Below are positions 28,954-60,774 of a DNA stretch of 60,774 nt, piece after piece. How positions within the stretch are numbered: the first letter of the stretch is position 1; every line of letters begins with the position of its first letter. Location of the stretch: contig CANRFB010000009.1 of NCBI GenBank assembly GCA_947629785.1, positions 1 to 60,774 of the forward strand, read 5' to 3'. This DNA comes from an uncultured Clostridia bacterium. Lineage in GTDB: Bacteria; Bacillota; Clostridia; Oscillospirales; Ruminococcaceae. Both the position numbers and the translations under genes were made by a program. The notes below the pieces were generated by a model. It worked only from the letters and a program-made list of their open reading frames with translations, made no database searches and was not told where the DNA came from.

Positions 28954-29195
28954 TAATGCGTAATGCGTAATTGGAGAGTTGAGAGTTAAGAGTTAAGAGT
29001 TGAGAGCAGGCTGAGCCTTGCATCAGAGTTGAGAGTTTAGAGTTGAGAGTTGAGATAAAATTTTCAACTTTGTACTCCTGAATTAAAGAAAACAGTAAAA
29101 TCTTAACGATTTACTCCCGAAGCACAATAAGCGGAGAAAAGAACAAAGACAGTTTATGTCAACATCTTAACTCTTAACTCTCCACTCTCAACTCT
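28954..29195 (+). repeat. Intergenic repeat element, copy F (rearranged)
   Basis: The left end has AATGCGTAATGCGTAATT heptads, then GAGAGTTGAGAGTTAAGAG heptads, then GCAGGCTGAGCCTTGCATC. Its hairpin arms are imperfect in this copy. A second heptad tract and a unique 90-base middle follow. The right end TTATGTCAACATCTTAACTC is the reverse complement of part of copy A, so halves have been exchanged between copies. The stop codon of the DUF975 gene lies in its last heptads. Confidence 0.75.
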
Positions 29196-29934
29196 GAAGT
29201 AAGGCTTCAGCTTTGCCGTTAGAAATTGCTTCCGCTTTTATCTCTTCATAGGCGAAAGCCATCGCCGCGTAATAATAGGGAAAAACGTAAATTATTCCCA
29301 GAATGTTGTATGTAAGCGCCGAAAGCAGGAACCAGCCAAGAAAAGTCAGCTGCAAATAAAGCAGATCGGCTTTGTGTCCGTCCATCATCTTCTGACTGAG
29401 CCTTAACGCTTCCGCCGCGGGAATGTCGGGGTATTCCGCCTTGATAAACACCGCCTGCGAATAGCTGTAATACTTCACTATCCCCGGGATCACAAACAGC
29501 AATCCCCACAGCGAAGTATAAAGCACTACAAGCGAAGTTACCCCAAAACTGCCTATTATCCTGCTTTTCCCGAATACGCGGAAAATTTCCCACAAGGACG
29601 TCTTTTCATAAATTGACATTCTGTACCAGTTCTGCACGCCCATAAACAGCACTAACAGCGCTGCAAGCAGAACTGCGTAAAGAATTACCATAAATAAACC
29701 GCCAAGAGCTGTCACGACAGCCGCGCCCCGTGCTTCGCTCTGCACAGTGCCTATTAAAGTCACAATGGAAATGCCCATTATTATCACAAGCAGGACATAA
29801 ATTATAATTCCGGACAGGAACGTCGCACCGATGTATATAAGATTCGCCAGTATTGACGTACCCGTATTCAATTTATAGAACGTTTTCGCGTTGCTTTTTA
29901 TTCTTCCGTGATCATAACCCAAGTCGTTTTTCAC
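29188..29934 (-). CDS. DUF975 family integral membrane protein
   Basis: Polytopic membrane protein of 248 aa with about five or six hydrophobic segments. The DUF975 pattern is visible: an N-terminal RIKSNAKTFYKLN, GLLFVIPGIVKYYSYSQAVF, then LRLSQKMMDGHKADLLYLQL and FLGWFLLSALT near the end. Function is unknown. The GTG at 29934 has no good ribosome site; a TTG at 29922, 9 bases after GGGGTG, is an alternative. The C-terminal codons CAG AGT TGA come from the repeat, so the stop is supplied by repeat copy F. Confidence 0.8.
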   Translation of the reverse strand: MKNDLGYDHGRIKSNAKTFYKLNTGTSILANLIYIGATFLSGIIIYVLLVIIMGISIVTLIGTVQSEARGAAVVTALGGLFMVILYAVLLAALLVLFMGVQNWYRMSIYEKTSLWEIFRVFGKSRIIGSFGVTSLVVLYTSLWGLLFVIPGIVKYYSYSQAVFIKAEYPDIPAAEALRLSQKMMDGHKADLLYLQLTFLGWFLLSALTYNILGIIYVFPYYYAAMAFAYEEIKAEAISNGKAEALLQS

Positions 29935-30004
29935 CCCATATTAGCAAAGGCTTGCCCTATGCCCTTTATTTTAATAATGAATATTCAATTTGCATTAAAG
30001 TTTT

Positions 30005-30199
30005 GAGAGTTGAGAGGCAGGCTGAGCCTGCACCCTTTCAGGCAAAGTTTTGTGATTTTCAAGTTAATACCTGCCGTGAGGTAAAACAAAGCTAAATCTA
30101 CAAAAACATTATGAGTAGGGATTATAAGCGTTACTGCAATATCTTAACTCTCAACTCTCAACTCTTAACTCTGAGGCAGGCTCAGCCTTGTCAGCCTTG
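30005..30199 (+). repeat. Intergenic repeat element, copy B
   Basis: Full-length element between the DUF975 gene and argF. The left end GAGAGTTGAGAG leads into GCAGGCTGAGCCTGCACCC and TCAGGCAAAG. The second hairpin is a perfect TACCT-GCCGTG-AGGTA. The right end is ATATCTTAACTCTCAACTC heptads, followed by an extra inverted core fragment (GGCTCAGCCTTGTCAGCC). That fragment overlaps the last three codons of argF. Confidence 0.85.
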
Positions 30200-33009: not shown

Positions 33010-33026
33010 AAAAATCTTTCCTTTCT

Positions 33027-33231
33027 TTAAGAGTTGAGAGCAGGCTGAGCCTGCACCCAGTCAGGCAAAGTTTAGTGATTCCTAACTTAATACCTGCCGT
33101 GAGATAAAGTAAAGTTAAATCTGCAAAAGTATTGATAATTGGAATATAAGCGTTTCTGCAATATCTTAACTCTCAACTCTCAACTCTCAACTCTTAACTC
33201 TTTAATTACGCATTACGAATTACGCATTATT
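33027..33231 (+). repeat. Intergenic repeat element, copy C (best full-length example)
   Basis: Starts with TTAAGAGTTGAGAG, then GCAGGCTGAGCCTGCACCC. A conserved middle (TACCTGCCGTGAGATAAAG, then GTTAAATCTGC, then AATATAAGCGTTTCTGCAAT) leads to CTCTCAACTC heptads that include the inverted CTCTCAACTCTTAA end. The second heptad module ATTACGC-ATTACGA-ATTACGC-ATTA lies at 33204-33229. The lipase-like gene's TAA stop is at its right edge. Confidence 0.88.
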
Positions 33232-35578: not shown

Positions 35579-35613
35579 TTTAATCAAAACCTCTTTAAAT
35601 TTAGTTTAATAAC

Positions 35614-35834
35614 TTAAGAGTTGAGAGCAGGCTGAGCCTGCACCCTTTCAGGCATTATTTAGTAATTTCCCGCTTAAATATACCGTGAGGCAAGGTAAGG
35701 CAGAATCTGCAAATAAAAATTTCCCACCCATATAGGCAAAAATTTTTATAGAACCAGCCTTACTTCATGCACGATGGGTACATACCTGTTTTTAACAAAA
35801 TAAAGCCTGAATGGGTCAAGGCTCAGCCTTGTCA
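35614..35834 (+). repeat. Intergenic repeat element, copy D (two cores head to head)
   Basis: Left core: TTAAGAGTTGAGAG, GCAGGCTGAGCCTGCACCC, TCAGGCATTATTTAG. The right part is a second core on the opposite strand, reading CAAGGCTGAGCCTTGACCC, then TCAGGCTTTATTTTGTTA. Its hairpin arms differ from the left core but still pair perfectly. The argJ stop codon TGA (35832-35834) lies in the inverted core. Confidence 0.85.
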
Positions 35835-37120: not shown

Positions 37121-37156
37121 TTAATGCGTAATTCTTAATGCGTAATGCGTAATTTA
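37121..37156 (+). repeat. Short TAATGCG heptad tract between hicB and argJ
   Basis: Units related to AATGCGT are repeated (TTAATGCGTAATTCTTAATG, then CGTAATGCGTAATTTATG). This is the second heptad module in reverse orientation, without the hairpin core. The hicB stop codon TAA lies at its right end. Confidence 0.75.
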
Positions 37157-37363
37157 TGCAAAAGCCAACTTGCCCTTGGGTTCGGGGATTGCCTTGCCGA
37201 TCTGTTTAGCTGTTTCTATCCATTCATCTATTATGATATGAACATTTTCAAGAGCTTTCTGCATGGTCTCGCCATCAGCCATACAGCCCGCAAGTTCGGG
37301 AACTTCGGCAATATAACTATTATCTTCATTACTCCAATAAATAATAATTTCGTATTTATACAT
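37154..37363 (-). CDS. hicB: HicB family antitoxin (short form)
   Basis: Antitoxin of 69 aa with the HicB partial RNase H-like fold: NEDNSYIAEVPELAGCMADG, then ETMQKALENVHIIIDEWIE. It would neutralise HicA. It lacks the C-terminal DNA-binding domain of longer HicB proteins, so autoregulation by this protein alone is doubtful. A perfect AGGAGG inside the hicA end precedes its ATG, while hicA has a weak site, which should favour antitoxin excess. Overlaps hicA by 8 bases. Confidence 0.85.
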   Translation of the reverse strand: MYKYEIIIYWSNEDNSYIAEVPELAGCMADGETMQKALENVHIIIDEWIETAKQIGKAIPEPKGKLAFA

Positions 37364-37616
37364 CGAACTTGCCTCCTAATCTATATTTTAATATAATATT
37401 CCTTACCTGTCTGACCTGATAAGGCTTTGCCTTATTACCTTTAGGCTGAATATTTATCAATTCGTCCACATCATCTTTAAAATATATAAAATGGTCGCCT
37501 TTTATACGAACGGTAAACCCAAGCAAAGTCAAAGCTTTTTGCAAATCGCTGAAATCAATATTATTATCTTGTGTACCGCTCATAATTTGCATAAATAATT
37601 TATTGTATTTACTCAT
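37356..37616 (-). CDS. hicA: HicA family mRNA interferase toxin
   Basis: Toxin of 86 aa with the double-stranded RNA-binding-like HicA fold. The catalytic histidine is in KGDHFIYFKD, and the C-terminal helix reads GNKAKPYQVRQVRNIILKY. HicA toxins cleave mRNA when unbound. This copy is slightly longer than the 60-80 residues of many HicA proteins, with an N-terminal arm. The pair sits between argJ and argC, flanked on both sides by repeat tracts. Confidence 0.85.
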   Translation of the reverse strand: MSKYNKLFMQIMSGTQDNNIDFSDLQKALTLLGFTVRIKGDHFIYFKDDVDELINIQPKGNKAKPYQVRQVRNIILKYRLGGKFDV

Positions 37617-47335: not shown

Positions 47336-47530
47336 TAGAGTTGTTTTTTAGAGTTGAGAGTTAAGAGTTAAGAGCAGGCTGAGCCTGCACCCTTTCAGGC
47401 GTTATTTAGTGATTTCCAAACTAAATATACCGTGAGGTAAAGTAAAGTTAAATCTGCAAAAGCATTGAAAAACGAAATATAAGCGTTACTGCAATATCTC
47501 AACTCTCAACTTTCAACTCTCAACTCTTAA
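47336..47530 (+). repeat. Intergenic repeat element, copy E
   Basis: Begins with GAGTTGAGAGTTAAGAG heptads, then GCAGGCTGAGCCTGCACCC, TCAGGCGTTATTTAGTG, and a shortened second hairpin (TATACCGTGAGGTA). It then has GTTAAATCTGC, AATATAAGCGTTACTGCAAT and the CTCAACTCTCAAC-type heptads, ending CTCAACTCTTAA. The pullulanase stop codon lies four bases beyond the end. Confidence 0.87.
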
Positions 47531-59590: not shown

Positions 59591-59990
59591 GCAGGCTAAG
59601 CCTTGACCCTTTCAGCAAGGCTGTAGCCTTGACCCTTTCAGGCAAAGTTTTGTTATCTTCCGCGTGTGCCTGCCGTGAGGGAGGCTGAGCCTGCACCCGG
59701 TCAGGCAAAGTTTTGTTATCTTCCACGTGTACCTGCCGTGAGGCAGGCTGAGGCGGGGGAGCCCCCGCGGGCATAATCAGGTTTTATTTTGCTTATATCA
59801 GTTTTGTACCCGGCGTGAGGCAGGCTGAGGCGGGGGAGCCCCCGCGGGCATAATCAGGTTTTATTTTGCTTATATCAGTTTTGTACCCGGCGTGAGGCAG
59901 GCTGAGCCTTGACCCATGCAGGCGTTATTTAGTGATTTTCAAATTGATGCCTGCCGTGAGGCAAAGCGCAGCGCAGTCTGCAAACAAAAA
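59591..59990 (+). repeat. Tandem array of repeat cores, including two 77-bp units
   Basis: At least six cores in the same direction fill the divergent gap between the Nudix and relB genes. They include GCAGGCTAAGCCTTGACCC, CAAGGCTGTAGCCTTGACCC, and GGAGGCTGAGCCTGCACCC. Two identical 77-bp units (59743-59819 and 59820-59896) replace the first hairpin by GCGGGGGAGCCCCCGC. A final copy ends TGCCTGCCGTGAGGCAAAG and CAGTCTGCAAACA. Bases 59991-60040 to the relB promoter are AT-rich without visible features. Confidence 0.88.
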
Positions 59991-60040
59991 TTTAGCAAAG
60001 AATGCTTTATATCAAACGCTATATAAATTATAGAAAATGC

Positions 60041-60068
60041 TTGACATTTTTCAAAAATGAGGTATAAT
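60041..60068 (+). promoter_or_regulatory. relB-yoeB promoter with palindrome
   Basis: Perfect TTGACA (60041-60046), 16 bases, and perfect TATAAT (60063-60068). The spacer contains ATTTTT-C-AAAAAT, a candidate operator for antitoxin autoregulation. Confidence 0.7.
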
Positions 60069-60092
60069 ATAATCAGGAAAGAAGGTGATACT

Positions 60093-60365
60093 ATGGCACA
60101 AACAACACAGATAAACTTTCGCATAGACAAGGATATAAAAAGAGATGCGGAAAAAGTTCTGGACGATATAGGACTTTCTATGTCAGCAGCGGTGACAGTG
60201 TTCCTGAAAAAGGTTGGCAGAGAACATCGCATTCCCTTTGAACTCGAATCTGACCCATTTTATTCTGAGAGCAATATGAATCATCTTTTGGATTTGAAAC
60301 GTAAAATTGACAACGGAACGGCACATTTTACCGAACATGATATTATAGAGGTCGATGATGAATGA
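60093..60365 (+). CDS. relB: RelB/DinJ family antitoxin
   Basis: Antitoxin of 90 aa. The ribbon-helix-helix N-terminus is TQINFRIDKDIKRDAEKVLD with DIGLSMSAAVTVFLKKV. The C-terminal acidic arm (FTEHDIIEVDDE) would wrap the toxin. GAAGGTGAT lies before the ATG at 60093; an in-frame ATG at 60057 overlaps the promoter. The stop overlaps the toxin start (ATGA), ensuring coupling. Confidence 0.9.
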   Translation: MAQTTQINFRIDKDIKRDAEKVLDDIGLSMSAAVTVFLKKVGREHRIPFELESDPFYSESNMNHLLDLKRKIDNGTAHFTEHDIIEVDDE

Positions 60366-60625
60366 AACTGCTTTGGGAAGATTCGGCTTGGGACGATTAT
60401 ATTTATTGGCAGATTCAGGATAGAAAAACACTGAAAAAAATAAATTCACTGCTTACAGAAATAAAGCGTACTCCTTTTAACGGGCTTGGCAAAGCAGAGC
60501 CTTTAAAAGGGGATTTAAGCGGATTGTGGAGCAGGCGTATAGACGATAAAAACAGATTAGTTTATTTTATTAAAGACAGCACTGTTTATATTGTTTCCTG
60601 CCGCGGACATTATAACGATAAATAG
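60362..60625 (+). CDS. yoeB: YoeB/Txe family mRNA interferase toxin
   Basis: Ribosome-dependent endoribonuclease of 87 aa. The catalytic set of E. coli YoeB is present at identical positions: Glu46 (KAEPLKGDLSG), Arg65 (DDKNRLVYF), His83 and Tyr84 (SCRGHYNDK). YoeB usually pairs with a YefM-type antitoxin; here the partner is RelB/DinJ-like. The TAG stop overlaps the first base of the next repeat. Confidence 0.92.
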   Translation: MKLLWEDSAWDDYIYWQIQDRKTLKKINSLLTEIKRTPFNGLGKAEPLKGDLSGLWSRRIDDKNRLVYFIKDSTVYIVSCRGHYNDK

Positions 60626-60774
60626 GCAGGCTGAGCCTGCACCCGGTCAGGCATTATTTTGTTATCTTCCGCGTGTGCCTGCCGTGAGGCAGGCTGTAGC
60701 CTGCACCCGGTCAGGCATTATTTTGTTATCTTCCGCGTGTGCCTGCCGTGAGGCAGGCTGTAGCCTGCACCCGG
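60625..60774 (+). repeat. Tandem repeat array of 63-64 bp cores (runs off the window)
   Basis: Two full units and the start of a third: GCAGGCTGAGCCTGCACCC or GCAGGCTGTAGCCTGCACCC, TCAGGCATTATTTTGTTATC, TTCCGCGTG, then TGCCTGCCGTGAGGCAGG. Periods are 63 and 64 bases, the difference being one T in the loop. It begins in the yoeB stop codon. The array continues beyond the window. Confidence 0.9.

Follow-up and report, generated by a model that had tools for sequence, protein, structure and literature searches.

The window analysed here is the whole 60,774-nt stretch of contig C9, part of a draft genome (3.05 Mb in 162 contigs) of an uncultured Clostridia bacterium. Towards its right-hand end lie forward-strand genes for a RelB antitoxin (60093–60365) and a YoeB-like toxin (60362–60625). 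The pair (60093–60625) sits between two repeat arrays as a neighbour outside the repeat itself. In the span 59591–59990 to its left, a hairpin designated hairpin 1 recurs on the forward strand in several states: a GC/TG chimera with four of six pairs (59591–59605), CAAGGC-TGTA-GCCTTG with all six (59616–59631), GGAGGC/GCCTGC with five of six (59680–59694), and a further GC/TG chimera with four of six at a tandem-unit junction (59897–59911). Two 77-bp units (59743–59896, forward strand) carry the sequence GCGGGGG-AG-CCCCCGC (59753–59768 and 59830–59845) in place of the 3′ half of hairpin 1. On the other side of the gene pair, a perfect forward-strand hairpin 1 starts immediately past the YoeB-like gene's stop codon (60626–60640) and is followed by two perfect copies with TGTA loops, at 60689–60704 and, at the window end, 60753–60768. 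A same-sized open reading frame (ORF) pair with arrays opens contig C15 of the same genome (positions 1–1312 of locus L001) and resembles window positions 59743–60774; the ORF pair is likened by size, and the C15 arrays differ in unit number and order, as if the segment had been duplicated. Integron attC sites, considered for gene pairs between arrays, are probably not involved, to judge by the features of attC core sites.

The remaining copies are spread more widely. Single forward-strand repeat arms with heptamer tracts on both sides lie at 30017–30083 (hairpin 1, ACCC tail, and body), 33040–33106, and 47374–47439, and a full-length inverted element of ~205 bp occupies 35627–35831, with a GC-type hairpin 1 at its left end (35627–35641) and a CA-type at its right (35817–35831, minus strand). 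The forms of hairpin 1 listed in the preliminary description, including the GC-rich substitute in the 77-bp units, all exist in the window: GCAGGC-TGA-GCCTGC at 30017, 33040, 35627, 47374, and 60626 (and at 1595 without an ACSC tail), GCAGGC-TGTA-GCCTGC at 60689 and 60753, CAAGGC-TGTA-GCCTTG at 59616, and CAAGGC-TGA-GCCTTG at 35831 on the minus strand. In the span 59591–59990, however, for which they had been described, one of four tailed copies is fully paired, and GCAGGC-TGA-GCCTGC is absent from that span. An excess of mismatches at tandem junctions was not supported (5 of 48 copies versus 3 of 68; p = 0.27).

The smallest unit of the repeat is 25–26 nt long and comprises a 6-bp stem, a loop of 3–4 nt that is TGA in most copies, and a tail of 10 nt, for example ACCCATTCAG; in places, this unit repeats at its own spacing. 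Beyond the tail lies a body of ~40 nt, followed by modules that combine in many ways, TGCCTGCCGTGAGGTA and TATACCGTGCATGA among them. The tag ACSC (GSGT on the other strand) stands beside the hairpin, and among copies anchored on the downstream body it is present at no more than one mismatch in 119 of 131; many of the other tag-bearing copies were found with ACSC in the search pattern. The bodies that follow the unit look unrelated between genera. Units occur singly, in tandem, and as inverted pairs forming the ~205-bp element, and half elements are flanked by tracts of the heptamers GAGAGTT/AACTCTC. Such tracts, together with ATTACGC/GCGTAAT, lie beside repeats at window positions 28954–29206, 30004–30178, 33027–33230, and 35596–35626.

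Among the loci collected, nine inverted pairs of 203–241 bp carry hairpin 1 at both ends, seven from the window's genome and two from a named relative. In seven of these nine full-length elements, the ends differ in hairpin-1 type, and each end is paired within itself; it is thus the local hairpin, not a long palindrome, that is kept. The element at 35627–35831 folds at −71.6 kcal/mol (z = −7.18), seven folds of single units show little or no advantage over their shuffled counterparts (z between +0.53 and −2.07), and the whole span 59591–59990 gives z = −1.91.

The repeat is real, and within the order its core reaches beyond the window's genus and family. The hairpin-1 core pattern (NNAGGC-TGA-GCCTNN followed by ACSC) has nine matches in the window, against a mean of 0.00 in 100 shuffles, and 153 copies genome-wide at up to one mismatch, against two for the reversed control pattern. 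Of the genus's 21 genomes, 14 matched a 67-nt query; some relatives, G003 and G006 among them, gave no match, whereas G000, G016, G164, G196, G372, and G517 are genomes rich in copies. The exact core was present in 28 of 297 genomes of the window's family (21 of 126 genera) and in 20 of 394 genomes sampled from the order (18 of 169 genera), 17 of these 20 lying outside the window's family; many single matches in these scans may be chance or coding occurrences. In a second family of the order, two genomes hold 17 and 25 exact copies. Database relatives yielded 25 stretches with the exact 23-nt core, from metagenome-assembled 'uncultured Clostridia' and one Oscillospiraceae; several of the uncultured Clostridia entries are labelled 'Lapin', French for rabbit. 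Hits in other genomes were places fetched from among the matches listed.

Support for pairing in hairpin 1 comes from 234 tailed copies, in which the two outermost stem positions are Watson–Crick in 224 and 222 cases; because some collected loci overlap, some copies were possibly counted twice. The four positions beyond the stem, going outward, are Watson–Crick in 32, 67, 52, and 74 of the 234 copies, and this sharp drop beyond the outer pairs delimits a stem of six pairs. Both outer pairs are matched in 219 of the 234 copies, drawn from 21 genomes, as GC/GC (152), CA/TG (54), CC/GG (11), and GA/TC (2), such that all four combinations of the two outer pairs exist. Loci of the window's own genome had been recruited by matches to the repeat, hairpin 1 included. 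When the downstream body instead of the hairpin served as the anchor, 115 of 131 copies possessed a perfect stem (five of them the GC-rich substitute) compared with 49 of 5,000 random sites; a further seven possessed five pairs. With the tail also required, 110 of 119 stems were perfect (loops of 3 nt in 96 and of 4 nt in 14), the other 12 of the 131 being left out of this set for want of a tail. Body-anchored copies also include compensated changes in the inner stem, namely GCAGAC/GTCTGC (two copies) and GCAGGT/ACCTGC (one).

Comparison with other genera widens this repertoire. In one genome of another genus (G196), whose loci were recruited by the core pattern, a search with the tail alone (A[CG]CCNNTTCG) returned 28 places, 19 of them with a perfect stem (random sites, 0.56%). 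These perfect stems are of four kinds—GCAGGC, GTCGGC, GTGGGC, and GCGGGC—with several loops, and after removal of nine copies of the form by which the loci had been recruited, 10 of 19 remain perfect. Nine distinct, perfectly paired stems are known in all: GCAGGC and CAAGGC, plus GCAGAC and GCAGGT in the genus, GTCGGC, GTGGGC, and GCGGGC in G196, and CCAGGC and GAAGGC elsewhere; stems within one genome or family share ancestry, and not all of them are independent events. Shuffling of the arms among 147 pooled copies placed pairs 1–5 above all 1,000 shuffles, while the innermost pair (125 copies, shuffle maximum 127) did not exceed all of them.

A prediction made in advance held that, outside the window's family but still within the order, the two bases 5′ of AGGC would be complementary to the dinucleotide on the 3′ side. 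It was right in 19 of 23 places from four other families, with the next position outward unpaired in all 23. The set comprised 23 of the 40 listed places outside the window's family and was picked before the 5′ bases were visible (of 25 places named for the prediction, those in G564 and G326 were left out); one family contributed 18 of the 23 places and three families the rest. Chance predicts one success in 16 per place, giving P = 9e-20 under an assumption of independence that is untrue for copies within one genome. The misses were L189, which seems unrelated, L195 and L206, in which the outermost pair is broken, and L201, with one broken pair and one G-U. Among held-out loci of the window's own genome, 27 of 29 fitted the same outer-pair prediction.

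The preliminary description had made significance above phylogenetic background the measure of covariation, and within the genus the two outer pairs fell short of this (E = 0.11 and 0.26). This result comes from a simplified, R-scape-like null applied to 131 sequences and 77 columns with 100 simulations, and confined to the genus because the pattern used to collect most copies from other genera holds the inner stem constant. Elsewhere in the genus alignment, column pairs that do not pair with each other correlate equally strongly, as blocks, and within the genus the two outer alleles could be such blocks, swapped whole. Covariation is thus unproven by the genus alone, and its support derives from comparing genera. 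These same observations favour shared descent as the sole explanation, in which a small number of subfamilies, each with its own stem, would have been spread as blocks and the paired changes would date from a handful of ancient events: two outer alleles predominate in the genus, and the outer pairs do not rise above the tree-based null. The seven further perfectly paired stems, and the success of the outer-pair prediction in other families, make this explanation very improbable. The paired change first described for hairpin 1 therefore stands across genera, where outer pairs match, inner stems are exchanged, and the prediction succeeds, but not within the genus. Hairpin 1 is base-paired, its arms changing together in a manner that seems to preserve its shape. 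The inner AGGC-TGA-GCCT is strongly conserved, so sequence matters here in addition to shape.

For hairpin 2, the second stem proposed to show compensated changes, no such relationship was found, and the hairpin as proposed is rejected. In 61 copies with TNCCTNCCGTG, the partner bases are independent (Fisher p = 1.0). Position 2 of the 5′ arm and position 4 of the 3′ arm read G-T in 28, G-C in 13, A-T in 9, and A-C in 4 copies, these four combinations accounting for 54 of the 61. TACCT is joined to AGGCA, and TGCCT to AGGTA, as freely as to the supposedly compensated arms; the stem is perfectly Watson–Crick in 16 of 61 copies, with one G-U in 10 more. Among copies with a further unit next to them in tandem, the 3′ arm is AGGCA in eight of nine, whichever 5′ arm is present, and of five hairpin-2-like sites within 59591–59990, one has a perfect 5-bp stem (59948). 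The folding program pairs this stretch otherwise in the units folded, and the stem that it prefers, CAGGY...RCCTG, likewise shows no paired change (p = 1.0 over 52 copies of the C type and 4 of the T type). Apparent covariation in a short palindrome needs checking in each copy: hairpin 1 passes, and hairpin 2 fails.

Covariation of the hairpin-1 arms agrees with the selection on a folded RNA or single-stranded DNA that was originally proposed, yet paired change is also predicted by palindromic binding sites and by templated mutation. In quasipalindrome correction, a replication process in which one arm is copied from the other, arms would become complementary in the absence of any selection on the fold. 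Such templating requires nothing beyond hairpin formation, can produce paired changes, even as a double change made at once, and fits the scarcity of single-mismatch intermediates among the 131 anchored copies, where perfect stems far outnumber those with five pairs. Against this, neither hairpin 2 nor the CAGGY/RCCTG stem shows paired change within these same bodies, the ends of seven of nine long elements stay different, and the conserved ACSC tag is left unexplained; templating is an unlikely source of the pattern, albeit one with some chance of being correct.

A double-stranded palindromic site for a dimeric protein, the half-sites of which shift together as specificity shifts, would also generate complementary arms, and strong conservation of the inner sequence and of the tag is in keeping with it. 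Several symmetric stems, however, coexist within single genomes (G000, which is the window's genome, as well as G164, G232, G008, and G196), and 4-nt loops stand beside the usual 3-nt loops (20 of 234 copies), which would shift the helical phase of such a site. Moreover, hybrids should be tolerated by any dimer that binds both forms, so the rarity of unmatched outer dinucleotides, hybrids included (8 of 116 in the genome's loci), counts against this decidedly unlikely explanation. Taken together, the pairing rule, the two loop lengths, the few unmatched copies, and the unlike ends of the long elements are better accommodated by a locally folded strand than by a duplex site.

Such a strand could be RNA, with hairpin 1 acting in transcripts as an mRNA 3′-end or 5′-leader element (in stability or processing, or in termination for the tRNA-linked variants). 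By a crude ORF caller, nine of 85 hairpin-1 copies from 31 loci lie inside an ORF. Copies abut stop codons: hairpin 1 faces 27 distinct gene 3′ ends in these loci, lying within 40 nt of 20 of them and at distance zero or overlapping in 11, with six of the 27 overlapped at the stop codon itself (crude ORF calls). On the start side, five of 18 are within 40 nt, the nearest at ~30 nt apart from one overlap that rests on a crude ORF call. When every copy is counted, 50 stand at gene 3′ ends versus 21 at starts, but with each gene side counted once (27 versus 18), the preference for 3′ ends is not significant (p = 0.23). ARAGORN also calls tRNA genes in five loci of other genomes (L073, L074, L192, L193, and L206) whose 3′ ends hairpin 1 directly adjoins or overlaps. 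On the other hand, the window has no Rfam match above the gathering score, a 15-locus sample gave two tRNAs and nothing else above the gathering scores, none of the window's hairpin-1 copies is followed directly by a U-tract, and there is no clear G-U bias among non-Watson–Crick cases at the two outer pairs (five G-U versus three A-C). A role at the RNA level is quite unlikely to be the explanation.

Several features of these junctions were recorded separately. ORFs in L004, L011, L019, L020, and L027 end on the loop TGA of hairpin 1 (crude ORF calls), and the repeat may thus supply their stop codon. The CC-type hairpin begins at the tRNA 3′ CCA in L073 (G087:C4), L192, and L193, and, by eye, in L072; in L073 and L192 it runs on into a terminator-like GGGCTCAGTTTTT, and L073 holds four copies of ~100 bp downstream of a tRNA-Pro gene. 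In L069, hairpin 1 begins 57 nt past a tRNA, while for L039, L072, and L095 tRNA ends are likely by eye, ARAGORN having found none.

The repeat turns over quickly. At seven intergenic sites compared with relatives (G016 and G015), where the adjoining DNA is 81%–95% identical, all seven differ in their repeats, the orthologous sites holding other repeats, rearranged repeats, or other genes (a toxin–antitoxin pair), with no clean empty site or target duplication at any of the seven. Intergenic regions of these bacteria are therefore rebuilt quickly between species that are ~94%–95% identical in most adjoining DNA.

Known repeat classes offer partial parallels. Pneumococcal BOX elements and RUP are mosaics of modules, with internal units that vary in number, and resemble the repeat in this construction. 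MITEs such as ERIC and NEMIS resemble it as intergenic inverted-repeat elements without genes, here of ~205 bp; unlike them, the repeat shows no target duplication at the sites seen, no transposase with matching ends was found, and its ends are self-complementary hairpins. The general definition of REPs, palindromes of 20–40 nt in many extragenic copies, covers the 25-nt unit (15-nt hairpin plus 10-nt tail). The organisation is that of REPINs, in which two inverted hairpins form a larger hairpin, as in the nine inverted pairs and the strongly folding window copy. As described in the GTAG REP/REPIN literature (PMC2817692, PMC3116915), those repeats share inverted hairpin pairs that form a larger hairpin, singlets, tandem clusters, and high copy number with the present one, which differs in its tag (ACSC, not GTAG) and in the absence of a Y1/RAYT gene from the genome.

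CGTC-tagged REPs, as far as the main text of Di Nocera et al. 2013 (PMC3733652) describes them, have 8–9-bp stems in which A-T pairs nearly always come first, loops of 4–5 nt, and the tag CGTC (also TGTC and CCTC); they occur in five phyla, with no dedicated transposase known. That main text contains no instance of Firmicutes, Clostridi-, or Ruminococc-. By the same account, members of both families are short hairpins that lie between genes, number from tens into the hundreds, and carry an unpaired tag at one end, and both form inverted dimers in a mosaic arrangement, but the repeat described here has a 6-bp stem with a sharp end, a loop of 3–4 nt, and the tag GSGT, and is found in Clostridia. 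A CGTC tag appears solely in the CC/GG variants of other genera, where ...GGACG reads CGTCC on the other strand. The best-ranked matches in the open-access literature included no paper on this repeat in Clostridia. In sum, the repeat behaves as a REP with REPIN-type organisation, without the GTAG tag and RAYT of one family or the stem of the CGTC REPs.

A RAYT/IS200 partner was sought and is unsupported. The Y1 transposase domain (PF01797) has no match in the window's genome, which is a draft, and occurs in six of 14 hairpin-carrying genomes, also drafts; in such assemblies a Y1 gene may have been lost. Ten Y1 loci were recovered from carriers (of 12 Y1 matches), and in one of these, L160 (G164:C1:201034-204390), the gene for an IS200-like Y1 transposase has a copy of hairpin 1 at a distance of ~0.28 kb. 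No tailed hairpin lies within ~1.5 kb of the other nine, and none of the 10 is flanked by two inverted copies of hairpin 1.

On the strength of these comparisons, we lean towards reading the repeat as a REP-like family of non-autonomous, dispersed, tagged hairpin elements that are often doubled into the ~205-bp inverted element. The recognised form would be a folded single strand, either lagging-strand DNA during copying or RNA, such that changes that break the stem would be lost while double changes would survive. A trans-acting enzyme with no recognisable relationship to Y1/RAYT transposases would copy or move the repeat, and recombination between copies would give rise to the tandem 63-, 64-, and 77-bp arrays, as well as to the mismatched chimeras within 59591–59990. 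More tentatively, and with the odds somewhat against it, the family might constitute, within a clostridial order, a third superfamily of tagged REPs: a hairpin-plus-ACSC module, recognised in single-stranded form by an enzyme other than Y1/RAYT and plugged into genus-specific bodies, that assembles closely packed, rapidly changing mosaics between genes, with some copies at stop codons and at the 3′ ends of tRNAs. To our knowledge, nothing is known to move REP hairpins that stand apart from the RAYT system. A pairing-constrained hairpin that gut Clostridia of several genera share, and that occurs in a genome where no Y1 was detected, provides a handle for finding such an enzyme by co-occurrence.

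In relatives, other sequences can stand in place of the repeat. Where the window has a repeat element at 33010–33200, G016 carries a HepT-like/nucleotidyltransferase pair identified by Pfam (L137; G016:C4:59900-60900), and DNA similar to this region occupies the same site in G015. Heptamer tracts likewise replace repeats at orthologous intergenic sites of relatives. Within the window, a HicA/HicB-like pair (37154–37616) is bounded by heptamer tracts; in G016, the HicB part is near-identical to that of the window and is then followed by repeat elements.
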